Of a DNA stretch of 64,000 nucleotides, positions 1,777-45,213 are shown piece by piece. The DNA is taken from positions 186,001 to 250,000 of the forward strand of contig NZ_JAPWKF010000010.1 in the NCBI RefSeq assembly GCF_028283685.1, in the 5' to 3' direction. The stretch is from Edaphobacter sp. (lineage in GTDB: Bacteria > Acidobacteriota > Terriglobia > Terriglobales > Acidobacteriaceae). How positions within the stretch are numbered: position 1 is the first letter of the stretch; each line of letters starts with the position of its first letter. Below the pieces are notes generated by a model that saw only the letters and a program-made list of their open reading frames with translations, did no database searches and was not told the origin of the DNA. A program made the translations under genes and the position numbers.

Positions 1777-2598
1777 CTACTGCATGGTTACGCCGCCAGA
1801 GTTCTTCTCTTCCTTCTTCTTCTCGTTTTCCTTGCGGGCGCCCATCGACTTCTGGACCCAATCGTCAGCCTTGGCGAGATCGTCCTTACGGGCGTTATCG
1901 TCAGTGCACTCGAGATCGGCCTTGCGGCGCCAGGTGAGGTTCAGGTACGACATCGCATCGTCATAGTTGGGGTTGATCTCGACGGCCTTGTTGAGGAACT
2001 CGAGGCCTTCGCTGATCAGCGGACCATTCTGCTCCTGCAGCTTCTGGCAGGCAGCCTTACTCTTCTTCACGTTGCCGTTGCCGTCATCGGTGACGCCCTC
2101 GGCGGCGAGGATGGTGCGGGCATTCTGATAGGCCTGCATCCAGTCGACGACACCGACAGTGTAGTAGGCCTCAGAGTCCTTGGGATCGAGCGAGATGACC
2201 TTCTTCTGATAGTCCTTCGCCTCGGAGAGCTTCTTGGTGTTGAAGTAGATCGACGCGATCTGCTTCAACGCCGCGAGATCGTTCGGATCCTTGGCAAGAA
2301 TCCCCTGGAAGCCATCGAGCGCCTTCTGCGCGATCTTCATGTTCTCTGGCGTGTCGAGATTCGGAACCACCTGGTAGGAGTACGACGTCGCAAGGTACAG
2401 CTTGGCCGTCTCATAGTCCGGGTCCAGCTTAATGGCGGTCTCGAAGTGATCGACCGCTTCCTCGTAGCGTGCGTTCTTGAATGCCTGCACGCCCTTGGTG
2501 AGCTGGTCACGCGCCTTCAGGCGGCTGCATCCGGTGACAGAACCAAGCATAAGCGCCAGCAGAGCTGCCGTAACCGGAATCCGTGCGGTCAATTTCAT
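1777..2598 (-). CDS. TPR-repeat lipoprotein
   Basis: The product is about 273 residues. The ATG at 2598 is preferred over an in-frame TTG 21 bp upstream, because AAGGAG lies 12 bases before the ATG and the signal peptide then starts normally (MKLTARIPVTAALL). A lipobox ending ...SVTGC near residue 24 predicts a lipid-anchored envelope protein. The rest is tetratricopeptide-like helices, including a clear unit around YEEAVDHFETAIKLDPDYE, and a lysine/glutamate-rich C-terminus. It lies downstream of, and in the same direction as, the tonB-exbB-exbD-exbD cluster, with a hairpin between them, so co-transcription is uncertain. TPR proteins are usually scaffolds; the partner is unknown, though a role with the Ton system is possible. 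Confidence 0.82.
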   Translation of the reverse strand: MKLTARIPVTAALLALMLGSVTGCSRLKARDQLTKGVQAFKNARYEEAVDHFETAIKLDPDYETAKLYLATSYSYQVVPNLDTPENMKIAQKALDGFQGILAKDPNDLAALKQIASIYFNTKKLSEAKDYQKKVISLDPKDSEAYYTVGVVDWMQAYQNARTILAAEGVTDDGNGNVKKSKAACQKLQEQNGPLISEGLEFLNKAVEINPNYDDAMSYLNLTWRRKADLECTDDNARKDDLAKADDWVQKSMGARKENEKKKEEKNSGGVTMQ

Positions 2599-2836
2599 GG
2601 GACGTGATATCTCCTTCAAATGGGCGCGTATCTACAGACGGGAATAATAAAACAATAAAGCCAGAATGTGGGCTTTCGGGTTGATTGTAACGGTATACAA
2701 CCCCTGTTCGCCAGAGCAGAACAGCAAATGCTCTTCAGAAATTATGAACCGCACAGAAAATTCATTGGATCGTCTTTGTATACGTCATGCCAAACCCATG
2801 CGTATCAAGAGGACCTTCCCCTGTGCAGCAAAGTAA

Positions 2837-2866
2837 TCGGGCGGCCGTTGATAGCCGACCGCCCGA
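2837..2866 (-). terminator. Hairpin between exbD and TPR lipoprotein gene
   Basis: An 8-bp GC-rich perfect stem (2837-2844 with 2859-2866) lies 26 bp downstream of the second exbD stop. Read on the minus strand it is followed by TTACTTTG, only a weak U-tract. It may attenuate or end transcription of the Ton operon before the TPR gene. Confidence 0.5.
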
Positions 2867-2891
2867 GATGACATGTTGCAACGAACACCGA

Positions 2892-3326
2892 CTACTGGCC
2901 GGCTTCGACGCGGGGTGTGATCAGGCCGATATTGTCGACGCCGGCCTGGTGGCCATAGTCGATGACTTCAGCAACCTTGCTGAAGTCAAGATCCTTGTCG
3001 CCCTTGACGAACATGACCTTCTCCGAACGTGCAGCGAAGATCTCAGCCAGCTTCGGCTCGAGGTCCTGCTTGTTGAAGGCGTTGTCGTTGATCTTGTACG
3101 AGGGCGCGCCAGCGCCGTTCGACAGGACCTGAACCACGATCGTCCGATCGTTCGGCGTATCCTGCGTCTTGTTCTTCGGAGGCTGGGGGACCAGCGTATC
3201 CAAGCCCTTCGGGGTGACCGGCACGATGACCATGAAGATGATCAGCAATACCAGCAAAACGTCGATCAGCGGCGTCACGTTGATCTCAGAGACCGCTCCG
3301 CCTGTTCCTCCACCGCCCATTCCCAT
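2892..3326 (-). CDS. exbD: Biopolymer transporter ExbD/TolR family protein (second copy)
   Basis: This 144-residue protein has a short cytoplasmic glycine-rich N-terminus, the ExbD signature INVTPLIDVLLVLLIIFM with the membrane-embedded aspartate used in proton coupling, a single transmembrane helix (about residues 20-40) and a periplasmic domain. With ExbB it forms the inner-membrane motor that energises TonB. It is the last of four same-strand genes (tonB, exbB, exbD, exbD) and follows the first exbD after about 48 bp. The two ExbD proteins differ clearly outside the transmembrane segment, so they are not a recent duplication. Confidence 0.93.
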   Translation of the reverse strand: MGMGGGGTGGAVSEINVTPLIDVLLVLLIIFMVIVPVTPKGLDTLVPQPPKNKTQDTPNDRTIVVQVLSNGAGAPSYKINDNAFNKQDLEPKLAEIFAARSEKVMFVKGDKDLDFSKVAEVIDYGHQAGVDNIGLITPRVEAGQ

Positions 3327-3374
3327 AGCTAATTCTCCTCAATCCCTGTACGACTCCGCCTTGTCGGCGAGTCT

Positions 3375-3818
3375 TTACTTCTTCACTGGTGGTTCTTCGG
3401 TCTCGCGCTTCTCGGTCAGAAGGCCGAGCTGGCTGACGCCGGCGGCGCGAACGCCGTCGACCGCATCCATCACCTTGCCGTAGTTGGCCCGGGCATCGGC
3501 GCGCAGGAAGACCTCTTTGTTGGTCTTGTTCTCAAGCTTCGATGCGATCTTCGGACCCAGGTCATCGAGCGTCACCTGGTCGCCACCCAGAAAGGTCCTG
3601 CCATCGCGGGTCACGGCAACCGTTACCGCATCTTCCTTGTTAGCGTCTTCCATGACGACTGCCGAATCCGTCTTCGGAAGATCGACGTTCACCTTGTTGT
3701 TCAGCATCGGGGTAATAACCATAAAGATAATCAGCAGCACCAGCATGACGTCCACCATCGGCGTCACGTTGATGTTGGAGTTTACCTTTTTACCCTCGTT
3801 CCTATTTGCCATTGCCAT
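3375..3818 (-). CDS. exbD: Biopolymer transporter ExbD/TolR family protein (first copy)
   Basis: The 147-residue product has the ExbD/TolR layout: a basic N-terminus, one transmembrane helix with NVTPMVDVMLVLLIIFM including the conserved aspartate, and a periplasmic domain. It would assemble with ExbB and transmit proton-motive force to TonB. It lies about 160 bp after exbB and 48 bp before the second exbD. Two different ExbD paralogues beside one ExbB suggests a hetero-ExbD stator, or one copy serving a Tol-like partner; the sequence does not decide between these. Confidence 0.94.
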   Translation of the reverse strand: MAMANRNEGKKVNSNINVTPMVDVMLVLLIIFMVITPMLNNKVNVDLPKTDSAVVMEDANKEDAVTVAVTRDGRTFLGGDQVTLDDLGPKIASKLENKTNKEVFLRADARANYGKVMDAVDGVRAAGVSQLGLLTEKRETEEPPVKK

Positions 3819-3979
3819 GTGTCTTTACTCCATCCAGCGTATCGGTCTTGAGGCGATCCGCCCTCTCAGGTCCGATTCCTTCGGTCCCGGATGCCAGCTG
3901 ACTGGCACCCGGGACGTTCAGGCTGTCATTCCCGCGAATGCGTTTCTGATAAGACACCCGGAGGTTGCCGGGGTGGATC

Positions 3980-4723
3980 TTACCGGTGGCTCTGCTTGAT
4001 GAAGTAGTCCAGCAGCTCGGAGGAGCTGTTGTCCATCTCGACGTCGAACGACTCAACCTTGTTGGTGAAGTAGTTGAAGGTCATAACGGCCGGGATGGCG
4101 ACGAGCAGACCGAAGGCGGTCGTTACGAGAGCCTCAGAGATACCGCCGGCGACTGCGCCGATACCGGAGGTCTTCTGGGTAGCGATCTGCTGGAAGGCGT
4201 TGAGAATACCGACCACGGTACCGAAGAGGCCGATGAACGGAGCCGTCGAACCGATGGTGGCGAGACCGCCCAGGCCGCGCTTCAGCTTGGCGTGAACGAT
4301 GGCCTCGGAACGCTCAAGGGCGCGCTTGGAGCTTTCGATCTGAGCTTCGGTGATGGCGCCACCGGAACCGAAGCTGCGGAACTCCTGCAGACCAGCGGTA
4401 ACAACCTCAGCAAGGTGCGACTTCTTGGAGCGGTCGGCAACCTTGATCGCCTCGTCCAGACGGCCGTCCTTCAGAGCGCCGGCAACCTTGGGAGCGAACT
4501 CACGCGACTGCTTGCGGGCAGCCGAGAAGTAGAGCGCGCGATCGATGATCACGGCCAGCGACCAGATCGACATAATGAACAGGATGATGACGACGGCGCG
4601 GGCCAGATTGCCCATGTTGCCCCAGAGCTGGAGAGGGCTGAAGCCGACCTGGCCGCCCTCCTGGAAGAAGAGAGCCAGCGTTGCGGGAACATGAGCGGTT
4701 GATGCGAGGTGAGCGAGAATCAC
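3980..4723 (-). CDS. exbB: MotA/TolQ/ExbB proton channel family protein
   Basis: The product is 247 residues. The start is GTG at 4723 with a strong AGGAGG seven bases upstream. One transmembrane helix lies near residues 40-60. The conserved MotA/TolQ/ExbB core follows in the C-terminal half: a helix with TIGSTAPFIGLFGTVVGI and the last helix around ALVTTAFGLLVAIPAVMTF. The family forms a pentameric proton channel surrounding ExbD helices. Gene order tonB-exbB-exbD-exbD supports ExbB rather than TolQ, because no tolA, tolB or pal gene is nearby. The large TonB-dependent receptors at 21-25 and 29-33 kb are plausible clients. Confidence 0.95.
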   Translation of the reverse strand: MILAHLASTAHVPATLALFFQEGGQVGFSPLQLWGNMGNLARAVVIILFIMSIWSLAVIIDRALYFSAARKQSREFAPKVAGALKDGRLDEAIKVADRSKKSHLAEVVTAGLQEFRSFGSGGAITEAQIESSKRALERSEAIVHAKLKRGLGGLATIGSTAPFIGLFGTVVGILNAFQQIATQKTSGIGAVAGGISEALVTTAFGLLVAIPAVMTFNYFTNKVESFDVEMDNSSSELLDYFIKQSHR

Positions 4724-28066: not shown

Positions 28067-29212
28067 ATGCTCCTCGACGCAACACTTCTTATCCAAGATA
28101 TTCAGCTACTGTGCTTCACCATCGTCTTTGGCGTTCTGGCGATGCAGCGGTGGAGCGATCGTGTACGCCGGTGGCTCTGGTACAGCTTCCTGGCCAATAC
28201 GATGGGAGCGACCCTGGATATTCTGGGCCACCACATGCCTGCGTGGTTCGGTAATGGAATCAACGAGGAGATGATTCCCCTGTCGTACGCTCTGCTGAAC
28301 GTCTCGCTGGTGTACTTCAACCGCCGCAGCCGGAGGCCGATCTGGATCTCGGTACTGATTCTGGCGGCGGGACTACCCTTCTTTCTCGCCTGGAGCAGCT
28401 CGCCGAACCGCATTCCCAGCAACACCCTGGCCGACCTGCTGATCGCGCTGGTGTGCATGGTGACGGCGGAGCTGCTGTTCAACAGCAGGGAAAAGTCCAC
28501 GCGGGCGCCACGGCTGCTGATGGGACTGTTCCTCGCGTTCTTTGTGGCAGTCGAGCTGGCGCGGGTGTGGGTGGTCTTTGTCCGGCACGTCGACCCGGAC
28601 GCGGCGGGCTCACGGCTGGCGATCGTCTCGGTGGTCACCTATATCGTCAACGTCTCGCTGCTGCCGCTGGCGTATGTGTGGATGATTCAGGCACGGCAGG
28701 AGTGGGAGCTGGTGCAGCAGAGCATGATCGATCCGCTGACCGGGGTGCTGAACCGCCGCGGCCTGGAGCAGACGCTGGATCGCGAACTGGCGCGGAATCA
28801 TCGGTTTGGCGATGAGCTGACCGTCGCCATGCTCGACCTGGACCACTTCAAGAACCTCAACGACCAGTACGGCCACGCCGTGGGAGACACCATTCTGATG
28901 AGCGTGGCGCAGCTGATCGCGGCCCAGCTGCGGGGTACCGACGTGATCGGGCGCTTCGGCGGCGAGGAGTTCGTGCTGCTGTTTCCCAACGCCGATCTTG
29001 ACCAGTCCGGCCCCGTGCTGGAGAGACTGTGCGAGATCCTGCGCGAGGAGACCTCGCTGCTGCCTTCGATCGACATCCGGGTGACGGCCAGCTTCGGCGC
29101 CACCAGTCTCCGTGGCCGCCGTGGAGTTACCGCGGCCGCACTCCTGAATGAGGCCGATATCGCCCTGTATCGCGCCAAGGCCAACGGCCGCGACAGGGTC
29201 TGCTTCTTTTGA
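28067..29212 (+). CDS. Membrane diguanylate cyclase (GGDEF domain)
   Basis: The 381-residue protein has about seven hydrophobic segments in residues 1-207, a short linker, then a GGDEF domain (about 218-381). The active-site signature is GGEEF at 298-302, and the product-inhibition I-site RxxD (R289-D292) is correctly placed five residues before it. DPLTGVLNRRGLEQ opens the domain. It should make cyclic di-GMP from two GTP at the inner membrane and be feedback-inhibited. The membrane part resembles no sensor family I recognise. The start follows GGGAG. The divergent TPR gene begins 174 bp upstream. Confidence 0.93.
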   Translation: MLLDATLLIQDIQLLCFTIVFGVLAMQRWSDRVRRWLWYSFLANTMGATLDILGHHMPAWFGNGINEEMIPLSYALLNVSLVYFNRRSRRPIWISVLILAAGLPFFLAWSSSPNRIPSNTLADLLIALVCMVTAELLFNSREKSTRAPRLLMGLFLAFFVAVELARVWVVFVRHVDPDAAGSRLAIVSVVTYIVNVSLLPLAYVWMIQARQEWELVQQSMIDPLTGVLNRRGLEQTLDRELARNHRFGDELTVAMLDLDHFKNLNDQYGHAVGDTILMSVAQLIAAQLRGTDVIGRFGGEEFVLLFPNADLDQSGPVLERLCEILREETSLLPSIDIRVTASFGATSLRGRRGVTAAALLNEADIALYRAKANGRDRVCFF

Positions 29213-29427: not shown

Positions 29428-32400
29428 ATGAAAAAGATTGCTCTCCTCCCCGAGAGCATGGCCCTGAAGATCTTAGGACTTCTGGCTATGCTGGTATTAA
29501 CCCTCCCCTTCGCCAGTGCGCAGATGGACCAAGGTGCTATTGCAGGCACCGTCATCGACTCCACAGGAGCGACCATCCCCAACGCGAAAGTAAAACTTGT
29601 TAACGAGCAGAATGGCTTCACCCTGGAGCGCACCGCGGACGGCGGCGGAGCGTATGTCTTTACCCCGCTGAAGATCGGCGTCTATACGCTGACGGCATCG
29701 GCGGATAACTTCCGCAGCTTTGAGCAGCGCGGGGTGAATGTGACGGCGGGCTCGCGAGCTGACGTGACGCTGACGCTGGGTGTGGTGTCGGCGGACCAGA
29801 GCATTGAGGTGAGCGCAGAGGCTCCACTGCTGCAGACGGCAGAGGCCTCGACGGGAGCGACCGTCTCGGCTGAGGCGATCGTGAAGACGCCGCTGCTCAA
29901 CCGCAACCCGATCTTTGTGGCACAGCTGACGCCGGGCGTGGTTCCGGCGGAGCAGGGATCGCGCGGCGCCAACAAGGGCGACTTCTCGGCCAACGGCCAG
30001 CGTTCGCAGCAGAACAACTACATCCTGGACGGCGTGGATAACAACGCCGTGCTGGTCGACATCCCCAACGGCGCCTCGTACGTGTTTAAGCCGGTGCCGG
30101 ATGCGCTGGCGGAGTTCAAGGTGCAGACCAGCAACTACAACGCCGAGCTGGGACGCGCCGCCGGTGCGGTGGTGAACATGTCGATCAAATCCGGCTCCAA
30201 CGGCCTGCACGGCTCGCTGTGGGAGTACTGGCGCAACGACATGCTGAATGCGCGTGACTTCTTCCAGTCGACGAAGCCGAAGTACCGGCAGAACCAGTTC
30301 GGCGGCACACTGGGCGGACCGATCATCAAGGACAAGCTGTTCTTCTTCGGCGACGCCGAGGCCAACCGCATCATCTTCGGACAGACGTCGATCAACTCGG
30401 TGCCGACGCTGAAGATGCGCGGCGGCGACTTCAGCGAACTGCTGAGCCCGAGCCTGACCAACAACAACGTGCGCACGCTGTACACACCGGGTTCGGGCGG
30501 CGCGACGCTGCAGCAGTGCAACGGGCAGCAGAATGTCCTTTGCGCCAGCCAGATCAGCCCCACCGCGCAGAAGGTGGCGAATGCCCTGCCCGCCCCGAAC
30601 CTGGGCGTGGACGGACAGACCTATAACAACTACCGCTTCCAGAGCTCGGCCAGCGACAACACGGTGCAGTACGAGGGCCGTATCGACTGGAACGCCAGCG
30701 CCAAGGACCAGGCGTTCACCCGCTACAGCGTCTTCAACCAGTCGCAGGGCTTCCCCAGCCCCTTCGGCATCCTCGACGGCAGCGGCTTTGGCTCCGGCGG
30801 CACCATCCAGGACAAGGCGCGTAACTTCACGGTGAGTGAGAATCACTTCTTCTCGCCGACCCTCTCCAACGAGTTCCGCTTCGGCTACAACTGGATCAAC
30901 GCACGGTACACGCAGGCGTATTCGGGTACGGACGTCTCGTCGCAGCTCGGGCTGGGCGGCATTCCGTTCTCGGACGGCAACGGCGGTACACCGCACTTCA
31001 ACCTGACGGGCATGACCTCGTTCGGCTCGCCGGAGTATGTGCCGACCGATGAGTATGAAAACGTCGCGCAGCTGCTCGACAACGTCTCGAAGGTGATCCA
31101 TCGCCACACGCTGAAGATGGGCGTGAACTTCCAGCGCATCCGCGTGCAGACGCTGCAGCCGACGACGCCGCGCGGCACGTTCAACTTCACCGGCAAGTAC
31201 ACGCAGGTTCCGGGCGAGTCGTCGACGACCGGCTTTGGCGCGGCCGACATGCTGGCCGACCAGATGGAGAGCGCCTCGATCTCGAACAGCTCGACGGTGC
31301 GCAACCAGCGCTGGTATCGGTCAGCCTACTTCCAGGACGACTGGCAGGCGATGCCGAAGCTGACGCTGAATCTCGGCATGCGCTGGGAGTACTTCCAGCC
31401 GGTCGAGGAGCTGAATGGGCGGCAGGCGAACTTCCTGGTCGACTACAACACCAACACGGCGCAGTTCCTGCTGCCGAACGCGGCGAAGCAGTACACACTG
31501 CCGACGTCGCTGCTGAACTCGCTGGCGACCAATAACGTTCCGGTGGTGTACACGAGCAACAACTCGCTGGCCAACGCGCAGAAGATGAACTTCTCGCCGC
31601 GGTTCGGCTTCTCGTACGCGGTGAACGACAAGACGGTCGTCCGCGGAGGCTTCGGCCTGTTCTTCGGCGGCATCGAGGCGGTGGGCTTCTACCCGAACCT
31701 GGGCGCGAACGCACCGTTCCTCTATACGTCGAACATCACGAGCGGATCGTGCTCGGCCGGTAACTGCCCGACGAGCGGCGTGACGCTGGAGAACGGCTTC
31801 TCGGACGCGATCGCGCAGGGACTCTCGAACTACGTGCAGACGCCTGACTTCCGCATGTATCCCAAGAACATTCAGACGCCGTACACGGAGATCTACAACC
31901 TTTCGGTGCAGCGTCAGATCAACAACAACACGACGATGACGCTCTCGTATGTCGGTTCGCTGGGCCGTCACCTGACCTCGAACCCGAAGGCCAACCAGAT
32001 TCCGACGCTGTTGACGCCGGGCGCCAATGTGCAGGCGGCGCGTCCGTTCAACCAGTTTGGAGGCAGCAGCCTGGAGTCGTACTCGGCCGTGAGCAACTAC
32101 AACGGCGGACAGGCGACGCTGGAGCACCGTACCTCGAACGGTCTCTACTTCCTGGCGACGTACACGTTCTCGAAGAACCTGGACGATGCGTTCCTTCCGC
32201 TGGGCGCCAGCGGCCAGTCCGGCTCGGGCTATCGCAACTGGCGTCAGCTGGGATACGGCTATGACTACGGCGCTTCATTCGCCGATACCCGTCATCGCGC
32301 CGTCATCAACGTGCAGTATGACCTGCCGTTCGGCATCGGCCGCAAGTACATGAACAAGTCGCACGTCGCGGACGCCCTGCTGGGCGGCTGGGGTGTGACG

Positions 32401-32907
32401 ACGCTGTTCCGTGTGCAGTCGGGCCAGCCGCAGGTGGTGCAGCCGAACAACGATCCGACCAACGGCTCGGCGCAGGCGCAGGGTATCCGCGTGGGCGACG
32501 TGAACTCGACCAACCTGACGAACCCGGGGACGGGCGTAACCTGCGCGACGCAGGTGAAGACCGTGAACACCTGGTTCAACCCCTGCGCCTTCACCAATCC
32601 TCCCGTCGCCACCGGCCCGAACGACATCGCGGCCTACGGCGGGTATGGACGCTCGATGGTGTATGGACCGGGCTATAACCGCGTGGACCTCTCGTTGTTC
32701 AAGAAGTTCACCCTCTACCGCGACACCGCGCTCGACATCCGCGCCGACCTGTTCAACGCCCTGAACACGCCGGCCTACGGACAGCCGAACGCAACCATCG
32801 GCAGCGGCTTTGGGCAGATCACCAGCACGCGCTTCGGAGGTTCCGGCACAGCAGCCGAGACTCCTGACGCGCGCGTGGCGCAGCTGTCGGCCCGCTTCCA
32901 CTTCTAA
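29428..32907 (+). CDS. TonB-dependent receptor, Oar type with carboxypeptidase-regulatory-like domain
   Basis: I start at the ATG at 29428 (MKKIALLPESMALK), with AGGTAAAAGG upstream and a signal peptide ending near FASAQ. The upstream in-frame region is non-coding. The 1,159-residue product has a carboxypeptidase-regulatory-like beta-sandwich (about 33-115, starting GAIAGTVIDSTGATIPNA), a plug domain (about 120-260, with FSANGQRSQQNNYILDGVD) and a large outer-membrane barrel ending in ...QLSARFHF, with the C-terminal phenylalanine. The family is strongly expanded in soil acidobacteria and probably imports oligosaccharides or peptides through TonB/ExbBD. It is a single gene followed by a terminator. 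Confidence 0.93.
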   Translation: MKKIALLPESMALKILGLLAMLVLTLPFASAQMDQGAIAGTVIDSTGATIPNAKVKLVNEQNGFTLERTADGGGAYVFTPLKIGVYTLTASADNFRSFEQRGVNVTAGSRADVTLTLGVVSADQSIEVSAEAPLLQTAEASTGATVSAEAIVKTPLLNRNPIFVAQLTPGVVPAEQGSRGANKGDFSANGQRSQQNNYILDGVDNNAVLVDIPNGASYVFKPVPDALAEFKVQTSNYNAELGRAAGAVVNMSIKSGSNGLHGSLWEYWRNDMLNARDFFQSTKPKYRQNQFGGTLGGPIIKDKLFFFGDAEANRIIFGQTSINSVPTLKMRGGDFSELLSPSLTNNNVRTLYTPGSGGATLQQCNGQQNVLCASQISPTAQKVANALPAPNLGVDGQTYNNYRFQSSASDNTVQYEGRIDWNASAKDQAFTRYSVFNQSQGFPSPFGILDGSGFGSGGTIQDKARNFTVSENHFFSPTLSNEFRFGYNWINARYTQAYSGTDVSSQLGLGGIPFSDGNGGTPHFNLTGMTSFGSPEYVPTDEYENVAQLLDNVSKVIHRHTLKMGVNFQRIRVQTLQPTTPRGTFNFTGKYTQVPGESSTTGFGAADMLADQMESASISNSSTVRNQRWYRSAYFQDDWQAMPKLTLNLGMRWEYFQPVEELNGRQANFLVDYNTNTAQFLLPNAAKQYTLPTSLLNSLATNNVPVVYTSNNSLANAQKMNFSPRFGFSYAVNDKTVVRGGFGLFFGGIEAVGFYPNLGANAPFLYTSNITSGSCSAGNCPTSGVTLENGFSDAIAQGLSNYVQTPDFRMYPKNIQTPYTEIYNLSVQRQINNNTTMTLSYVGSLGRHLTSNPKANQIPTLLTPGANVQAARPFNQFGGSSLESYSAVSNYNGGQATLEHRTSNGLYFLATYTFSKNLDDAFLPLGASGQSGSGYRNWRQLGYGYDYGASFADTRHRAVINVQYDLPFGIGRKYMNKSHVADALLGGWGVTTLFRVQSGQPQVVQPNNDPTNGSAQAQGIRVGDVNSTNLTNPGTGVTCATQVKTVNTWFNPCAFTNPPVATGPNDIAAYGGYGRSMVYGPGYNRVDLSLFKKFTLYRDTALDIRADLFNALNTPAYGQPNATIGSGFGQITSTRFGGSGTAAETPDARVAQLSARFHF

Positions 32908-35818: not shown

Positions 35819-35909
35819 CGCGGAACGCGCGACAACGGGATTGGCTGCGGCAGCAAAAAAAGTCCGAGCGCAAAGCGCGTTCGTGCGTCTGCCACAGTAG
35901 AAGACCCCT

Positions 35910-36464
35910 ATGGCATCGTTTGAGGAAAGCCTGGCATTGCTGTCGTCCACCAGAAGCGACGAGTCGCAGATCGACGTCGCCGCGCTGGTGGAGATGCACT
36001 CCCGGCTGCTGTTTCGCGTCGCTCACTCGCTGCTGCGGTCGCGCAGCGAGGCCGAGGACGTGGTGCAGGATACCTTCCTCCGCGTGCTGGAGCATCCGTA
36101 TGCCATGTCCGGCGTGCGCGAGCCGCGCCTGTGGCTGGCGCGCATCGCCTGGAACCTTTCGCTGGACCGCATCCGGCGGCGCAAGACGAGGCCGTCGGAT
36201 GCGGAGTTTGTCGATACGCTGATCGCACCGGGCACACCGGCCGACAGGGCGCTCGACGAATCACGCCGTATGCATGCCGCGCTGCGCGAGATTGAACGCC
36301 TGCCCGCGCAGGAGCGGCATGTGCTTCTCCTCACCTCACTCGAAGACCTGGACACAGCGGAGATCGCGACCGTCATCGGACGCAGCGACTCCGCCGTCCG
36401 TTCCCTGCTGTTTCGCGCACGCACGCGGCTGCGCGAACGGCTGGAGAAAGCAGGCTACCGATGA
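35910..36464 (+). CDS. ECF-family RNA polymerase sigma factor
   Basis: The 184-residue protein has sigma region 2 (about 32-95, with RSRSEAEDVVQDTFLRVLEH) and region 4 (about 125-180, with LPAQERHVLLLTSLEDLDTAEIATVI broken over two helices and a DSAVRSLLFRARTRLRERL recognition helix). These bind -10 and -35 elements of target promoters. The stop overlaps the start of the next gene by 4 bp (ATGA), so expression is coupled. The third gene follows with no gap. Such an arrangement normally means the second gene encodes the anti-sigma factor. The ECF subgroup cannot be assigned by eye. Confidence 0.93.
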   Translation: MASFEESLALLSSTRSDESQIDVAALVEMHSRLLFRVAHSLLRSRSEAEDVVQDTFLRVLEHPYAMSGVREPRLWLARIAWNLSLDRIRRRKTRPSDAEFVDTLIAPGTPADRALDESRRMHAALREIERLPAQERHVLLLTSLEDLDTAEIATVIGRSDSAVRSLLFRARTRLRERLEKAGYR

Positions 36465-37078
36465 ATCCTGAGAACAACATGAATCCCGTCGATAAAATTC
36501 TGGGCGCTATGCGCGATGCCGAGCCTTCTGCAGGTATGGAAGCCCGCATTCTTCAAACGCTCGACACCCGCAGCCGCGATGGTTATCGCGAGCATGAGCA
36601 ACGGCCGTCGCTGCTGGCGCGACTGCGCTGGGTTCCTGTCGCCGCGCTTGCGGTGCTGGCTGTGGCTGTCGTCGTCAACCGCAGTGCTCATCGCGACGAT
36701 CAGACATCAGCGACGACGACTCACCGATCAGCTGCAGCCACTCCGCGTTCAGGCAGCGTGATCGCTCCGCAGACCACTGCCGCTCTACCGGCGGCGGTAT
36801 CCGCGCCGCGTCGTCGCATGCCTGCGGTGAAGGCCGATGCGGCGCAAGTGCAGGCGGCTGCCGAACAGATGAAAGATGCGAGCGTTGCGGTCAGCCATCC
36901 CGCGCCACCAATCCCCGTCACGGCGCAGGAGCGGCTGCTGCTGCGTTATGCGCGCGGCGGCCACACCGACGATCTTGCCCAGATCAGCAACGAACGCAGA
37001 GCCGCCGAGGACGAGCAGGAGAAGACGGCGTTCCAGGCGTTCTTCAAACCACCACCCCCCATCAAGATTGGAGAGTAA
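36461..37078 (+). CDS. Single-pass membrane protein, putative anti-sigma factor
   Basis: I do not recognise the family. The 205-residue product has a 50-residue cytoplasmic N-terminus (MNPVDKILGAMRDAEPSAGMEARIL), one transmembrane helix at about 58-76 (VPVAALAVLAVAVVV) and an Ala/Pro/Thr-rich periplasmic part ending in KPPPPIKIGE. Position (overlapping the sigma gene by 4 bp) and topology fit an anti-sigma factor. The zinc-binding HxxxCxxC motif of ZAS-type anti-sigmas is absent; there are no cysteines at all. It may also be a partner of the secretin-domain protein that follows immediately. Confidence 0.68.
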   Translation: MNPENNMNPVDKILGAMRDAEPSAGMEARILQTLDTRSRDGYREHEQRPSLLARLRWVPVAALAVLAVAVVVNRSAHRDDQTSATTTHRSAAATPRSGSVIAPQTTAALPAAVSAPRRRMPAVKADAAQVQAAAEQMKDASVAVSHPAPPIPVTAQERLLLRYARGGHTDDLAQISNERRAAEDEQEKTAFQAFFKPPPPIKIGE

Positions 37079-37885
37079 ATGACAACCCTACGTACTCCGC
37101 TTCGCCTGCTTGCAGGTGCTGCCTTTCTCTCGGCCATCACGCTGACCGCCACGGCACAGACGCCTGAGCCGCAGAAGCCTGCCGTTACGGCTGCACCGGC
37201 AACGACTGTTGGCCCGCACGATCCGAGCCGCCGCATGACGGTAGCGTCAGTGCATACTTTTTATCTCAAAAACGCGACCAGCCAGCAGGAGCAGAACGAG
37301 ATTCTGACCGGGCTTCGCAATATTGTCGATCCAACCACGAGACTTTTTCTCTCTCCGGCGCAGAACGCAATCGTGGCGGGTGGAACAGATGACCAGGTCG
37401 CGCTAGCTCAGTCGATCATCGAAGCACTCGACAGGCCGCGCAAAACCTATCGACTGACTTATACGCTGATCGACTTCGATGGAATGAAGCGGGTGGGGGA
37501 TCAGCACTACAGCACGGTGGCCGTTCCAGGGCAGCACGTCAGCTTGAAACAGGGCAACAAGGTGCCCATCATCACTGGGAGCTACCTGAAGGGAGAGCCG
37601 AATATGCAGGAAAACCAGGTCACCTATCTCGATGTAGGCATGGATTTCGACGTTACTCTCGACGACTCCGCAGATACGCTTCGTCTGAAGACCAAGGTCT
37701 CGCAGTCGAGCGTGGTTGAGGATCGAACCGTAGCTGCAGCGATGCAGGACCCAATTCTGCGTCAGTCTGTCTTTGAGGGCAGCGCTGCGCCGATGCTGGG
37801 CAAGCCGCTGACTATCGGCTCGCTCGACATCATCGGCACGACGCGGCGCATCGAGATCCAGGTGCTGGTCGAGCCGATCTCGTAG
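37079..37885 (+). CDS. Exported protein with secretin-type N-domain
   Basis: The ATG directly follows the TAA of the preceding gene. The 268-residue protein has a signal peptide (ending near LTATAQ, residue 27). A segment at about 55-125 (HTFYLKNATSQQEQNEILTG, then TRLFLSPAQNAIVAGGTDDQ and IIEALDRPR) has the alternating pattern of the NolW/secretin N1-like domain. A beta-rich C-terminal part follows. A true secretin is two to three times longer and carries a membrane-spanning C domain, which I do not see. It may be a periplasmic N-domain-only protein. Function is unknown, and its coupling to an ECF sigma factor is notable. Confidence 0.65.
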   Translation: MTTLRTPLRLLAGAAFLSAITLTATAQTPEPQKPAVTAAPATTVGPHDPSRRMTVASVHTFYLKNATSQQEQNEILTGLRNIVDPTTRLFLSPAQNAIVAGGTDDQVALAQSIIEALDRPRKTYRLTYTLIDFDGMKRVGDQHYSTVAVPGQHVSLKQGNKVPIITGSYLKGEPNMQENQVTYLDVGMDFDVTLDDSADTLRLKTKVSQSSVVEDRTVAAAMQDPILRQSVFEGSAAPMLGKPLTIGSLDIIGTTRRIEIQVLVEPIS

Positions 37886-39745: not shown

Positions 39746-40084
39746 TTACCAGAGTCCCCACGCGCGGCTCATGTAGTCGCTCAGCGTCATGGTGATCAGG
39801 ACCAGGAAGGTGAAGAAGCCGGCGGTGACGGTCAGCTTGATCAGTTTGGACTGATAGAAGACGTGCATGAAGAACAGGATCACGACCGTGCCCTTGACGC
39901 AGGCGATGCCAACGGCGAGAACCGGGTTGAGGATGCCGAGGTCGACAAACGCCGCGGCCACCGTAAGACCAGTGAGGATGAGCAGCGAGACGTAGACCAG
40001 GATATAGGTGCCCGGGCCGATGATGTGATGCTCAGAGTGCTCCGGATTGGTCACGTTTGCCGGGTCATGGTATTGAGACGACAT
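39746..40084 (-). CDS. Cytochrome c oxidase subunit IV (caa3 type)
   Basis: This 112-residue protein has three transmembrane helices (about 28-46, 53-76 and 85-105). It matches the prokaryotic subunit IV family by size, hydrophobicity and position, with HIIGPGTYILVYVSLLILTG at the start of the first helix. It is a small non-catalytic subunit that stabilises subunits I and III. It is the last gene of the operon and lies about 21 bp after subunit III. A terminator follows. Confidence 0.88.
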   Translation of the reverse strand: MSSQYHDPANVTNPEHSEHHIIGPGTYILVYVSLLILTGLTVAAAFVDLGILNPVLAVGIACVKGTVVILFFMHVFYQSKLIKLTVTAGFFTFLVLITMTLSDYMSRAWGLW

Positions 40085-40105
40085 GATCTTCTCCTATAAA
40101 TGCGG

Positions 40106-40864
40106 CTACGTGCCGGGGTGTCGATTGATGAGATAGAGCAGCGGGAAGAGGAAGATCCACACAATATCGACAAAGTGCCAGTACAGGCCAAAGTTTTCTA
40201 TCGGTGCGACGTACCCTTCGGTGAACTCCCCTCGATTCGCCCTGTAGGTCAGCCAGAACAGCAGCACGATACCGATGACCATGTGCAGCGCATGCATTCC
40301 GGTCATGGCGAAGTACAGAACGAAGAAGAGCTGGGTCTTCTGCGCCATGTCTGGCGAGAGCGGCTCTTCAACAGGCTTGCCGGTCTTGGGGTTCAGCGGA
40401 GGATTGACGAACTCCGTGATATCGAAGTGGGCTCCGGGGATGTGATGCTTATCCCACTTCTCCTTGTACTCGACGGCCTTGACACCAAGGAAGGCGAGAC
40501 CCGCGATGTTGGTGAGGATCAGGAAGAGGACAAGCAGGCTCTTCTTGCGAACCTCTGCTGCCCAGACGCCCAGCGCCATGAAGAAGCCTGAGCTGATCAG
40601 CACCGCCGTGTTTACCGTTCCCAGGGGAATGCTGAGCTGGTTCGACGCGGCGACGAAGGCCGGGTTGTACCAGTTGCGGTAGAGCAGGTAGGCGAAGAAC
40701 AGACCGCCGAAGAACATGATTTCGGTCAGCAGGAACAGCCACATGCCGAAGGTACCCGCTTCGCGCTGCTGCTCCTCCGTCTCGAAGTGATGACGGAGCT
40801 GCGGCAGTTCGACGTGGTGCTCCTCTACGTGAGTATCGTGTGTCGCTACGATCGCGTTATCCAA
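40106..40864 (-). CDS. Cytochrome c oxidase subunit III
   Basis: The 252-residue protein has a hydrophilic N-terminus (about 30 residues) and then typical subunit III helices. The segments [20 protein letters not shown] near residue 40 and [20 protein letters not shown] at the end are diagnostic. The loop between helices carries an insert of about 50 residues. The start overlaps the end of the subunit I gene by 8 bp. Subunit III binds no metal but helps proton uptake and stability. Confidence 0.94.
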
Positions 40865-42524
40865 CGGTCGTCACCTCTTGTTCCGTCTTGTGGGCAAGCC
40901 ACTCGTAGTCATAGGCCTCGTGATCCATCACGGGCATCTCGATGAAGTTCTCGGTCAGCGGCGGGGACTGGATCTGCCATTCCAGGCCAGTCGCCTGCCA
41001 GGGATTATTACCCGCGATCTTGCCGTATTTCAGCGACCAGAGCAGGTACAGAACCGGCATCAGGAAGCCAAATCCGAGAACCGTGGCGCCAGCCGTCGAA
41101 AGGACGTTGAGCACCTGGAACTCCGGCGGATAGGAATGATAACGACGAGGCATGCCGAGATAGCCCAACATAAACTGCGGCATGAAGGTCAGGTTGAACC
41201 CGATAAAGCTGGTCACCGCGGAAAGCTGCGAGATCGACTCCGGGTACATCCGGCCCGTCAACTTCGGCCACCAGAAGTGCAGACCTGCCAGGAAGGCCAT
41301 CAGCATGCCGCCCACCATCACGTAGTGGAAGTGCGCGACGATGAAGTAGGTCTCGGTGAGATGGATGTCCATGCCGAGCGAACCGAGGAAGACGCCGGTC
41401 AGACCGCCGATGGTGAACAGTCCGATGAAGGCCAGGGCATAGAGCATCGGGGTCTCAAAGGTGATCGAGCCCTTTTGCATCGTGAAGGACCAATTGAAGA
41501 CTTTGATCGCTGACGGAACAGCTACAAGCATGGTCAGCAGGGAGAAGACGAGCGCCGAGTAGTTCGAGACACCCATGATGAACATGTGGTGCGCCCAGAC
41601 AAAGAAGCCGAACAGCGCGATCGCCACGGAGGAGAACGCGACCGCCGAATAGCCGAAGACGCGCTTGCGGCTAAACGTCGACATGACCTCGGAGATGACG
41701 CCGAACCCCGGCAGAATCATGATGTACACGGCAGGGTGCGAGTAGAACCAGAACAGATGCTGGAACAGCAGCGGATCGCCGCCCTTGGTCGGATCGAAGA
41801 CGCCGATGCCGATCGTGCGCTCAAGAACCACCAGCACCAGGGTGATCGCCAGAACCGGAGTGCCCAGAACCATCAGGACCGAAGCCGCATAGTTCGACCA
41901 GACAAACAGGGGCAGGCGGAACCAGGTCATTCCCGGGGCGCGCATGCGATGGATGGTGACGATAAAGTTCAGGCCGGTAAAGATCGACGAGAATCCGACG
42001 ATGAAGACCCCAAGCCCAGCCGTGACCACGTGCGTGTTCAGGTAGTGAGTCGAGAGCGGCGTGGTGAACGTCCAGCCGGTATCGACACCGCCGAGGACGA
42101 TGGCCGCCGACAGGAAGATCGCGCCGAACATGTACAGGTACCAGCTCAGCAAGTTGATCTTGGGGAACGCAAGATCTCTGGTTCCGATCATGATCGGGAT
42201 CAGGAAGTTGCCGAGGGTCGCGGGGATCGAAGGCACCAGAAACAGAAAGATCATGACGATGCCATGCATCGTGAAGAGCTTGTTATAGGTATCGGAGGCG
42301 ACCAGGTCCGGCTGGGGCGTCAGCAGCTCCAGGCGGATGAGGCCGGCAAAGGTGCCGCCAACGAGGAAGAAAAAGGTGATCGAAATCAGGTACAGGATTG
42401 CGATCCGCTTGTGGTCGGCAGTAAACAGCCAGCTCAGGATGCCGTCCTCAGCGTTGATATAGTTCTTCTTCGGGATTACGGCCGTCTTTTGATCCGGCAG
42501 ATTCACAATGGTTGCTGCGCTCAT
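40857..42524 (-). CDS. Cytochrome c oxidase subunit I, A2-type
   Basis: The 555-residue protein has the 12-helix heme-copper core. The CuB/heme region reads YSHPAVY (residues 261-267). The glutamate of the D-channel in mitochondrial-type oxidases (HPEVY) is therefore replaced by alanine, with a Tyr-Ser pair ahead of it, which is the signature of A2-type caa3 oxidases. Other markers are HHMFIMG and [11 protein letters not shown] with the heme ligand histidines. It reduces oxygen to water and pumps protons in the inner membrane. Its start overlaps the end of subunit II by 4 bp. Confidence 0.96.
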
Positions 42525-43567
42525 GGCTTCACCACCCCCGTGGTATCTTGCGGAGTCACCTGGTTGGACTCCGACGTGGTCAGCGTCTGCTGCACACGAT
42601 AGTTCGTCTTGAGGGACTTAATGAATTCCACCAGATCGATCAGTCCCTCTTCGCTGATCTGCCCCTGGTAGGTGGGCATGATGGGCGCGTAGCCCACAGG
42701 AACGTGCTGCGACGGGTTGAGGATCGTATCGCGGAGGAAGGCCTCGTTGACCAGAACCTCGCTGCCGTTGGCCAGCTTCAGTTTACTTCCGTAGACGTTG
42801 GCCAGGTTGGGACCGCGGGAGGTCGCCGAACCGGAGTGGCAGGAGTTGCAGCCCATGCTGGCGAAGAGACGCTCGCCGTTCTGCGCCAGCGACATGCCGC
42901 TGGTCGACTCCTCGGTCCACTTCTTGTAATCATCCGGGGTCAGTACGGTGACTTCGCCGATCATGCCGGAGTGCTTGGTGCCGCAGTACTGGGTGCAGAA
43001 GATATGGTAGGTGCCGGGTGTCGTCGCCTCGAACCAGACGGTTGAATAGCGGCCCGGGATGACTTCACGCTTCACGCGGAAGTCGGGGATCGAGAAGCTG
43101 TGGAAGACGTCCTGCGAGATCATCGTCAGCTGGATGGGCTGGCCGGTGGGAACATGCAGCGAGTTGATCTCGTGCTGGCCGCCCTGGTGCTCCGCCTTCC
43201 ACATCCACTGCTTGCCGACGACGTAGATGTTCATCGCATTGGCCGGAGGATTGAAGATGCGGAAATAGAGCAGCGCGCCCCAGACGAAGCAGATGAGGAA
43301 CAGCGCCAGCGGGATAATGGTCCAGGTCGCTTCGAGCAGCGTCGAGCCCTCAACCTGCGTGGCGATGGGGCTGCGCTCCTTGCGGTAGCGGATGGCGAAC
43401 CCAAAGACCAGCGCACCCACCAGCGTCAGGCCGACGATGGTGATCAGCAGCAGGAAGAAGTAGAGCGCGTCGGTGTACGGAGCGATCGTCGACGCCTCGC
43501 GCGGGAACAGCGCCGAAGCGTTGAGCCACTTCACCAGAAATTGCCACAGTACGGGACTGATATGCAT
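42521..43567 (-). CDS. Cytochrome c oxidase subunit II with C-terminal cytochrome c domain
   Basis: The 348-residue protein has two N-terminal transmembrane helices (about 31-56 and 75-98) and a periplasmic CuA domain with [10 protein letters not shown] and [12 protein letters not shown], which provide the copper ligands. A fused C-terminal cytochrome c domain carries CNSCH at residues 240-244 and a distal methionine (IMPTY). The fusion defines a caa3 oxidase. Electrons pass from ActE or another cytochrome through this heme to CuA and subunit I. It is the first oxidase subunit gene, about 10 bp after the SCO gene. Confidence 0.95.
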
Positions 43568-43576
43568 CGTTACCCT

Positions 43577-44482
43577 TTATCCATTCTCTTTCTTCGTCAA
43601 ATCGTGGTCACGTCCGAGCTTCGCGTCCTTGCGGAACATCAGAAACATGAAGCCTCCCAGCCCTGCCACCGTCACCATGCCCCCAAGCTGGACCACGCGC
43701 GCGATCACCAGGGAATGCTTGTTGGTCTGCGGATCGTAGTGATAGCAGTAGGTGAGAATGTTGGCGACCGGTGACCCAATCTTGTTGTCCGAGGCCTCGA
43801 TCAGCCCCAGCAAAATATCCTTCGGCGAGTACTCCACGCCGAGGTAGTACTGCGCCAGCTTGCCCTCGCTTGTAACCACCTCGATCGAGCTGGCGTGCGC
43901 GAACTGCGTCAGCCTGCCGTCGGGACCGGGGACGCGGACGTAGCCAAAGCCAACCGCGTCGGTCACCTTGTCGATGGCCTGGCGCTGGCCGGTGAGAAAG
44001 TGCCATCCGTTGGCAGTCTCAGGTTGGCCGTAGCGCTTCAGGTAGAAGGCCTTCTTCTTGGCGGCCATCTCCGGCGTCTCCGCCGGGTCGATGGAGATCA
44101 CCACGATGTTGAAGTCCTTGCCCGGCGTAAGGTGCACCATCTCCAGCGCACTGGTCAGGCCGTCCATCTCCTCCGAGCAGAGCATCGGGCAGTTGTAGTA
44201 CACCAGCGTGACGATGGCGGGGTGCTTGCCGAAGTAATCGCCAAGCTTAACCGTCTTGCCGGTATCGTCGACAAACTGCGCGTCGAGAGGCAGCTGCTGA
44301 TTCAGCTTCTGCGTCACGCCGACCTTCTGCAGCACCTGCGGCAGCTGATCTCCCGAGTTCTCGCCCGAAGCCTTGTCGGCGTAGCTGGCAACCTGCGCCG
44401 TGAGCGGAGCCGACAGGAACGCGCAGGCCAGAGCGGCTACTGCCACCCGTCCCACCTTCCGTGCTGTCATCCAATCGCTCAT
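43577..44482 (-). CDS. SCO1/SenC family copper chaperone
   Basis: The 301-residue protein has a signal sequence (about 1-30), a thioredoxin-like domain with the copper-binding CPMLC (C98, C102) and a conserved histidine in FAHASSIEV. There is also a C-terminal transmembrane helix (about 265-285), unlike typical SCO proteins that have an N-terminal anchor. It delivers copper to the CuA site of subunit II. Position directly before the subunit II gene fits this. A short gap separates it from the single-TM protein gene upstream. Confidence 0.9.
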   Translation of the reverse strand: MSDWMTARKVGRVAVAALACAFLSAPLTAQVASYADKASGENSGDQLPQVLQKVGVTQKLNQQLPLDAQFVDDTGKTVKLGDYFGKHPAIVTLVYYNCPMLCSEEMDGLTSALEMVHLTPGKDFNIVVISIDPAETPEMAAKKKAFYLKRYGQPETANGWHFLTGQRQAIDKVTDAVGFGYVRVPGPDGRLTQFAHASSIEVVTSEGKLAQYYLGVEYSPKDILLGLIEASDNKIGSPVANILTYCYHYDPQTNKHSLVIARVVQLGGMVTVAGLGGFMFLMFRKDAKLGRDHDLTKKENG

Positions 44483-44544
44483 CGTCTGCCTTCGCTTCCT
44501 GAATCGCCTGTTGTACCGGTACGGCCTGTTGCTCTACGTGCGGC

Positions 44545-45213
44545 TTACTTGTTTACCGGAGCAAGTGCTGCGTGCTCGGCGTTCTCAGCCCTGCTGAAGT
44601 CCATCTTCTGCTTACGCTCTTCGATCTGATCCTGCTCGTAGCCGGTGCGCGCAAAGCCATCGGTCAGCGGTGCGGTCACGACCGGAACCGCCTCGCCGGC
44701 CATCAGCTTCTCGGTGCTCGGCGCCTCGGCATGAACCGGGAGGCCGCGCTGAGCGATCAGCTCCATCGCGCGCTCGATCGGGATACGGACGCCATCCTCG
44801 CCAGACACGCTGGAGTAGTGCTCGAGCATAAGGTCTTCGCGTGCGTGCAGGTCTGCGGTCTGCTGCAGACCGTCATCGGTCTCCATGCGGGGCGTGGGGA
44901 AAGAGTCGGTCAGCTTCTGGAGAACCTTCTGCTGCATCTCCGGGTTGCTGGCCAGGTTCTCGCGCTCACGAGTCGTCTTTACGCCCGCCATCTCGTTCCA
45001 CTTGGTCACCGGGCCGTCGGCCTTGATGAGGGCTCCGTTGATCACCTTACCCATGACGAAGCAGAAGGCAAAGAAGACGACCAGGAAGACCACCAAGCCG
45101 GAAATGAAGACGAGCACGCCATTAGCGTTGACGTCAGAGATCTCGTAGCCCGGATCATCCGCCGAGTGACCGGGGGTGTAATGGGATTTGTGCTCGTGAT
45201 CGTTAGTGGGCAT
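44545..45213 (-). CDS. Single-TM protein of the ACIII-caa3 operon, unknown
   Basis: I do not recognise this 222-residue protein. It has a histidine-containing hydrophilic N-terminus (about 1-30), one transmembrane helix at about 32-56 (NGVLVFISGLVVFLVVFF) and a long hydrophilic, probably periplasmic, domain with no cysteine or heme motif. The start overlaps the end of actF by 11 bp, so it is translationally coupled to ACIII. It may be an accessory ACIII subunit or an assembly factor that joins ACIII to the oxidase. The latter fits its place between actF and the SCO/oxidase genes. Confidence 0.72.
   Translation of the reverse strand: MPTNDHEHKSHYTPGHSADDPGYEISDVNANGVLVFISGLVVFLVVFFAFCFVMGKVINGALIKADGPVTKWNEMAGVKTTRERENLASNPEMQQKVLQKLTDSFPTPRMETDDGLQQTADLHAREDLMLEHYSSVSGEDGVRIPIERAMELIAQRGLPVHAEAPSTEKLMAGEAVPVVTAPLTDGFARTGYEQDQIEERKQKMDFSRAENAEHAALAPVNK

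Follow-up and report, generated by a model that had tools for sequence, protein, structure and literature searches.

An ECF sigma factor operon of Edaphobacter with an anti-sigma-like membrane protein and a secretin relative in third place

What might a small secretin relative do when its gene is joined to that of a sigma factor? The question is raised by a locus of Edaphobacter sp. (Acidobacteriaceae) lying in a stretch of 64,000 nucleotides (contig NZ_JAPWKF010000010.1, positions 186,001 to 250,000), here called the window. Three plus-strand open reading frames follow one another at 35910–36464 (184 residues), 36461–37078 (205 residues) and 37079–37885 (268 residues); genes one and two share 4 bp (36461–36464), and genes two and three abut at a zero-base junction (37078/37079). 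The original prediction, made from the sequence alone, had pointed to these two junctions, and the coordinates bear it out. It had read the trio as an extracytoplasmic function (ECF) sigma factor, a membrane protein of anti-sigma topology and a secretin N-domain lacking the pore, which together could sense the state of a secretion or pilus channel, in a layout not previously described. The explanation that we favour, with evenly balanced confidence, is by analogy with RseA and RseB: the trio would be a self-driven sigma/anti-sigma/periplasmic-partner operon whose partner is derived from a secretin.

A shortened secretin in a recurring trio

The third gene (37079–37885, plus strand) encodes a protein of 268 residues, predicted to be exported, that we call a mini-secretin. 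Its N1-like domain spans residues 57–117 (37247–37429) and is followed by a shortened secretin core at residues 123–267 (37445–37879). Pfam Secretin_N matches residues 58–122 with an E-value of 1e-6 and 29.3 bits, against a gathering score of 28.2, and superposition of the N1-like domain on the N-domains of XcpQ (5mp2) with VIA-align gives Z 10.3 for 64 aligned residues, with a root-mean-square deviation (rmsd) of 1.7. At E ≤ 1 the sole other match to gene three in its own genome is a full secretin, an open frame of 891 residues, which it matches over residues 54–130 and 148–247; since both stretches match, the C-terminal half of the protein is secretin-like too. Searched against the PDB, a profile built from 40 relatives of gene three retrieves GspD secretins, 5wln being the best (E 2e-10); its core stretch alone matches GspD with an independent E-value of 2e-5, and profile–profile comparison with 17 full secretins gives E-values of 5e-72 (global) and 1.3e-53 (local). 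Pfam Secretin is matched by 28 of the 40 family members and Secretin_N by 26 (E ≤ 0.01), and the third protein of one trio (L062) exceeds the gathering score of Pfam Secretin.

The predicted structure leads to the same family. AlphaFold2 gives a mean predicted local distance difference test score (pLDDT) of 86.7, placing the N1-like domain at residues 57–117 and an all-beta core, mostly above 90, at residues 123–267. Foldseek gives 39 matches at E ≤ 0.001, every one a secretin or secretion-system entry, headed by f1 pIV (E 7e-11), and VIA-align superimposes the model on Vibrio cholerae GspD with Z 14.5, 196 residues aligned and an rmsd of 4.7. Rows outside the secretins in the VIA-align output, namely metallochaperones with an N1-like fold and a designed beta protein, were dismissed as common-fold matches.

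Alignment with the full secretin of the same genome reveals where the core has been shortened. Beyond the first core strand a single stretch of about 70 residues is absent (69 gap columns in the local alignment; in the global one, three gaps close together that add up to 73), at a position that we take to be that of the first gate segment of secretins. Past the GSL strand gene three has about 20 residues left, where the full secretin has about 45 before its corresponding last strand is reached; this second shortening was paired by eye, as the aligners left the last strand unplaced. Gene three thus has a Secretin_N domain and homology to the core, and does not have a full-length secretin domain that includes the two gate segments. 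In a search of the phylum, most of the full secretins listed (frames of about 600–1100 residues) match approximately positions 26–127 of the 146-position core profile, a few starting at positions 6–15, while the mini-secretins match nearly all 146 positions.

Mini-secretins are about 150–370 residues long and occur in three forms: an N0-like domain with N1 and core (L062, and L068 over two frames), N1 with core, as in the window, and core only (for example L061, L063–L067 and L069–L072). As the core is the part common to all three, the N-domain is not what defines gene three. These comparisons together show gene three to be a secretin relative that has an N1-like domain and a core wanting some 70 residues at the presumed first gate segment. 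Of the proposed secretin N-domain without a pore, the Secretin_N match has stood; the shortened core, which is the conserved part, has to be added.

The trio is not a chance arrangement: it recurs in many relatives, as the survey of other acidobacteria called for by the original prediction revealed. An ECF gene lies upstream of gene three, on the same strand, in 66 of 98 loci in total, some assemblies being counted twice. This sum is made up of 26 of 40 loci in the family search, 21 of 30 named GTDB loci, 14 of 20 loci in the phylum search, which adds one decayed remnant (L147), and 5 of 8 further loci. The loci were taken from the matches listed and not at random, the 40 of the family search being part of the matches listed. 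Some of the 30 named loci are apparently the same as G-labelled assemblies (for example L076/L035, L085/L038, L091/L041, L096/L057 and L099/L071); such duplicates are included in the count of 21 and excluded from the sigma factor tree and the C-terminal-motif set described below. At two named loci (L090 and L093) that are cut by the contig start, a gene-two relative still adjoins the third gene. Genes were called with a home-made caller, which placed some starts wrongly and erred in 2 of 47 gene-two calls (L068 and L097); at L097 the ECF frame is broken.

The order sigma factor, anti-sigma-like protein, mini-secretin is kept across six families. Named carriers include Granulicella species and Bryocella elongata, and trios outside the window's family are found in G324 (f49), G359 (f16), G410 (f47) and G204 (f8), and in five genomes of f40 (G260, G571, G572, G573 and G514). 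Mini-secretins with no ECF gene as neighbour are also seen in f27, f6 and f57.

Several individual loci depart from the common form. L147 (G348, 2491–3276, plus strand), from the window's genus, is a decayed trio in which the remains of the ECF frame and of the mini-secretin frame, both truncated, overlap, gene two being uncalled. Behind the ECF gene of L199 (G204) there is a tandem pair of mini-secretin frames (2777–4027). The trio of L082 lies in a contig labelled as a Rhodanobacteraceae metagenome-assembled genome; its sigma factor falls among those of Acidobacteriaceae in the tree, and the contig is for this reason probably misbinned. At L139, L140, L141 and L201, core-only mini-secretins stand alone, with no ECF gene, beside an exported protein containing repeated 'W.P' stretches; at L139, L141 and L201 a DUF4136-like protein is present as well, so that these loci show another context that recurs.

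The sigma factor, its promoter and the membrane protein

Gene one (35910–36464, plus strand) is an ECF sigma factor of 184 residues, as had been proposed. It consists of sigma2 and sigma4 domains only, matching Sigma70_r2 (4e-16) and Sigma70_r4_2 (3e-14) in Pfam and TIGR02937 (2.7e-24) in NCBIfam, and its closest solved chains are SigL, SigW and SigE, with CnrH as well. In a midpoint-rooted tree of 77 sigma factors, those of linked trios whose third protein has the N1-core form make up one group, with the core-only L063 nested inside; those of core-only trios are scattered over deep branches, and the pair with N0-N1-core proteins forms one group.

Upstream of gene one is a predicted ECF-type promoter (35865–35890, plus strand), with a −35 element CGAGCG (35865–35870) and, after a spacer of 15 bases, a −10 element CGTCT (35886–35890). 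The motif is conserved upstream of the ECF genes of the window's relatives, farther variants taking forms such as TGAACG ... CGTCTT. For 66 trios, a set distinct from the 66 ECF-linked loci counted above, 150 bp or more of upstream sequence was available; a loose version occurs within 150 bp in 36 of them, with 0.14 expected from shuffles that preserve base composition only. Many of these loci had been picked by the motif, and background density was therefore left out of use. Most of the other 30 have a variant recognisable by eye, and L097, L196 and L203 have none. This conservation suggests that the ECF sigma factor regulates its own operon.

A large regulon in the window's own genome was considered and rejected. 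Exact matches to the promoter core number 21, against 26 for the reversed pattern, and only that of the operon precedes a called gene. A longer pattern allowing up to 3 mismatches gives 3 matches in this genome (control 5) and 4 in G034 (control 6); the operon promoter is the sole one accepted from the two sets, and the G034 match that was inspected (L227) lies in a coding region.

Gene two (36461–37078, plus strand) encodes an anti-sigma-like single-pass membrane protein of 205 residues. AlphaFold2 (mean pLDDT 71.7) predicts two short N-terminal helices at residues 9–19 and 26–40 (36485–36580), with pLDDT 85–87 for the block 11–40, a transmembrane helix at residues 58–81 (36632–36703), a disordered linker, and helices at residues 127–194 (36839–37042) that would make up a periplasmic C-terminal part. 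The N-terminal helices, a putative sigma-binding segment, fall in a region for which the relatives give the consensus LxxLRxAxPPxGxExRIL. A strong hydrophobic segment is present in 45 of the 47 called relatives, the other two being the miscalls L068 and L097. As a prediction, the protein therefore has the layout of a membrane-bound anti-sigma factor, with an ECF partner, one membrane helix and a helical cytoplasmic part at the N-terminus. It scores 18.9 bits (E 0.0012) with the NCBIfam model NF052375, 'anti-sigma factor', a weak match given the cut-off of 100. Of 37 gene-two relatives, 14 match this model at E ≤ 0.01, the best with 1.6e-7, and six match a model named 'putative anti-sigmaE' (best 3e-4).

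The protein has no cysteine and five histidines, none of them within an HxxxCxxC motif, which agrees with the earlier statement that it lacks the zinc-binding anti-sigma (ZAS) motif. The motif occurs in none of the 47 called relatives and, in the set that leaves out L138, L197 and L198, in no gene-two protein, whether linked (0 of 54) or unlinked (0 of 13). Those three, distant proteins of family f40 in the gene-two position, do carry the motif of the class I ZAS anti-sigma factors (Hx3Cx2C), and L196 and L203 of the same family do not; the window's protein differs from class I in having no motif and merely two short predicted cytoplasmic helices. Confirmation of the three zinc-motif proteins through Pfam was dropped, zf-HC2 giving E 0.05 for L138 and no match for L197 or L198. 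Passages of PMC7406223 describe one anti-sigma group in which HxxxCxxC is present in part of the members and absent elsewhere, and because of such mixed presence the missing motif in the window's gene two is ordinary.

Two features tie gene two to its neighbours. The sigma gene overlaps it by 4 bases in 30 of the 47 called trios. Within its C-terminal part, PVTAQER (36914–36934, plus strand) belongs to a motif that was picked after the alignment had been viewed; of the gene-two proteins whose genes adjoin a mini-secretin gene 45 of 54 have it, and of the unlinked ones 0 of 13. This distribution suggests, but does not show, that the C-terminal part works with the co-encoded mini-secretin.

Unlinked mini-secretins and the pilus gene pilC

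At 14 of the 40 family-search loci the third gene has no ECF gene as its neighbour. A closely related one (43–48% identity) lies elsewhere in 13 of the 14 genomes, with a gene-two relative after it, and one genome with an unlinked mini-secretin (G183) also has a trio (ECF 60% identity). The sigma factors of the unlinked lineage form one clade (support 98/97) beside the group that holds the N1-core trios; the junction of the two has support of 95/57 only, and both together with L061 have 100/99. At the unlinked third genes themselves the promoter motif is exact in 8 of 14 cases (0.002 expected) and present with at most one substitution in 13 (0.15 expected); these expectations, like those for pilC below, come from shuffles that preserve base composition only. 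G140 is the exception: it yielded no such sigma factor at E ≤ 1e-25, and neither pilC nor the mini-secretin gene has the promoter; no search for gene two was made in this genome.

A motif search of eight genomes returned 33 matches against 30 for the control. Five of the 30 matches with loci are intergenic and precede a called gene: the ECF genes of G104 and the window, the mini-secretin genes of G104 and G129, and pilC of G119, which encodes a T2SSF-family protein, PilC, and is followed by the start of a gene judged PilB-like by eye. Among genomes with unlinked mini-secretins, pilC has the exact motif in 7 of 12 (0.008 expected) and the motif with at most one substitution in 9 of 12 (0.37 expected). 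A stricter search of nine genomes of the unlinked lineage gave 20 matches, compared with 33 for the reversed pattern; 9 are intergenic before a called gene, 3 are intergenic with no gene following and 8 lie inside genes. The nine genes are pilC (six times), a pilin gene (N_methyl), a secretin gene and a mini-secretin gene. The enrichment is thus one of position and gene and not of raw number, since the 20 matches are fewer than the 33 of the control and yet nine stand before genes of pilus or secretin type. These data suggest that the sigma factor controls the unlinked mini-secretin gene and pilC in the sister lineages.

Matches in G044, G047 and G104 (L311, L305 and L314) were set aside as lying inside coding sequence. 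The type IV pilus secretin was rejected as a regular target, the motif standing before only 3 of 27 secretin loci (L322, L326 and L336), in a count with one locus uncalled and several starts uncertain. Neither pilC nor the secretin gene of the window's own genome was seen to have the promoter upstream. The pilC genes of the window's genus (L292 and others) conserve CGTCTAAGAT and lack the GAGCG element; CGTCTAAGAT may be an ordinary sigma70-type −10 element, perhaps that of a replaced or overlapping promoter. The pilus link of the original prediction is accordingly backed by the sister lineages, with the shared promoter ahead of pilC, and was not found at the corresponding genes of the window's genome.

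As the sister lineages carry the mini-secretin as a separate target gene, and as it persists in G140 without the sigma factor, the mini-secretin may belong to the output of the system and not to its sensing side. The sigma and anti-sigma factors would then sense something else, and the mini-secretin would be an effector only, one that, for instance, plugs, escorts or competes with the type IV pilus secretin ring. This is the main rival of the direct-partner reading; we consider it possible, on the doubtful side. It draws on the sigma-type promoter of the unlinked genes, on the sigma and gene-two relatives encoded elsewhere in 13 of the 14 genomes, on G140, and on the same promoter before pilC. 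It accounts less readily for a gene order kept in six families, for the 4-base overlap in 30 of 47 trios and for an anti-sigma C-terminal motif that tracks co-encoding.

Weighing the readings

On the reading that we favour, in which the mini-secretin is the periplasmic partner of the anti-sigma factor, the ECF sigma factor would transcribe its own operon. The gene-two protein, with its one membrane helix, disordered linker and helical periplasmic end, would retain the sigma factor at the inner membrane through its short helical cytoplasmic segment. The mini-secretin would be exported to the periplasm and would there engage the periplasmic part of the anti-sigma factor, in the manner of RseB with RseA or of an STN domain in cell-surface signalling; in this way it might report on the condition of a secretin or of a pilus apparatus. 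Binding of the sigma factor by protein two, contact between proteins two and three and the nature of the signal are the steps that we infer.

A number of observations weigh against this account. The distribution of the trio is patchy: among the 22 genomes sampled from the window's genus, a mini-secretin is listed for 12, a remnant included, and full secretins alone for the other 10. The loss of the second gate segment of the core, though probable, was placed by eye. Pfam finds no family for the gene-two protein at E ≤ 1, its anti-sigma matches lie far below curated cut-offs and are too weak for a curated call, and of the three HxxxCxxC proteins only L138 approaches zf-HC2, weakly. The operon promoter is the only one found before a gene in the window's own genome; no exact promoter match was found at solo mini-secretins outside the family; and at pilC of trio genomes the motif is exact in 0 of 12 and has at most one substitution in 3 of 12 (0.31 expected). 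Finally, sister lineages have the mini-secretin as a separate target gene, and G140 has it without the sigma factor.

Two further explanations are much less probable. The mini-secretin could form an independent small pore, an ungated ring in the outer membrane made under envelope stress. Its fold still matches the cores of f1 pIV and GspD, and it keeps a type of N1-like domain that oligomerises in secretins; given the absence of some 70 core residues, the existence of core-only forms with no N-domain at all and the probable harm of an ungated pore, we think this highly improbable. That gene two is a membrane linker for the mini-secretin, with the sigma factor regulated by synthesis alone, would fit the lack of a curated family match and a cytoplasmic part of only about 55 residues, but it is very hard to reconcile with HxxxCxxC in the same-place gene of L138, L197 and L198, with NF052375 in 14 of 37 relatives and with sigma and gene-two pairs that exist without a neighbouring mini-secretin.

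The direct-partner reading can be taken further, to a bolder form that we regard as unlikely and put forward tentatively. The mini-secretin would be a domesticated sensory subunit that mimics an unassembled secretin protomer; held by the C-terminal helices of the anti-sigma factor, it would be drawn off by the channel or report on it, so that production of type IV pilus parts is matched to the state of the outer-membrane channel.

How does the trio compare with known systems? RseB is a LolA-like protein, whereas the third protein of the trio is a secretin relative; the model of gene three is secretin-like over its ordered length, and no LolA-like row is among the matches listed, which does not by itself exclude that fold. 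The rpoE–rseA–rseB operon otherwise resembles the trio in its order of a sigma factor, a single-pass anti-sigma factor without a zinc motif and an exported protein; published abstracts name the operon and give rpoE a sigmaE-dependent promoter, comparable with the own promoter predicted for the trio. In cell-surface signalling (FecI/FecR/FecA and FoxR/FoxA), passages of PMC11637429 describe a secretin-like STN domain that acts on an ECF anti-sigma factor at its periplasmic end, as we propose for the trio; FoxA and FoxR interact through their STN-like domains, with protection from proteolysis according to the paper's title. The partner in the trio is instead a small protein in its own right, made up of an N1-like domain followed by a secretin core. 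Relative to GspD, PilQ, InvG and pIV, with which it shares a homologous N1-like domain and core, the mini-secretin lacks about 70 core residues at the first gate segment, has a shorter end and, in trios, is encoded with an ECF factor.

Nor does a receptor gene stand beside the anti-sigma gene. A 1159-residue outer-membrane receptor-like protein with OMP_b-brl_4 and CarboxypepD_reg domains and a weak Plug match is encoded at 29428–32907, preceded by the gene for a GGDEF protein (28067–29212). This receptor-like gene, the nearest one seen, is about 3 kb upstream of the trio, with other genes intervening, and its product has no STN match at E ≤ 0.001. An M20 peptidase gene lies immediately before the trio. 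We take neither the receptor-like gene nor the peptidase gene to be a member of the system. Downstream, on the minus strand (39746–45213), are genes resembling by eye those for cytochrome oxidase subunits, an ordinary set. By the features compared, the trio does not belong to cell-surface signalling, its third protein being secretin-like and 268 residues long and no STN receptor being adjacent, and it probably does not belong to RpoE–RseA–RseB either.

The interpretation from which the analysis set out is therefore supported in part. Gene two matched no unrelated family, gene three has a secretin domain and the trio is conserved; the identity of gene three and the novelty of the layout needed mending. 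The ECF part, the anti-sigma part and the layout are of known kinds, as rpoE–rseA–rseB and STN signalling illustrate, and what was not found in the literature searched is a paper on a secretin-derived protein in third place, a group that the ECF re-classification tables may name.

If the direct-partner reading is correct, secretins would have given rise to a regulatory protein as well as to channels, and ECF anti-sigma factors would have a third kind of periplasmic partner beside RseB and the signalling domains of receptors. A patchily distributed signalling family of the acidobacteria would gain a testable input, the state of an outer-membrane channel, and a testable output, the mini-secretin and pilC.

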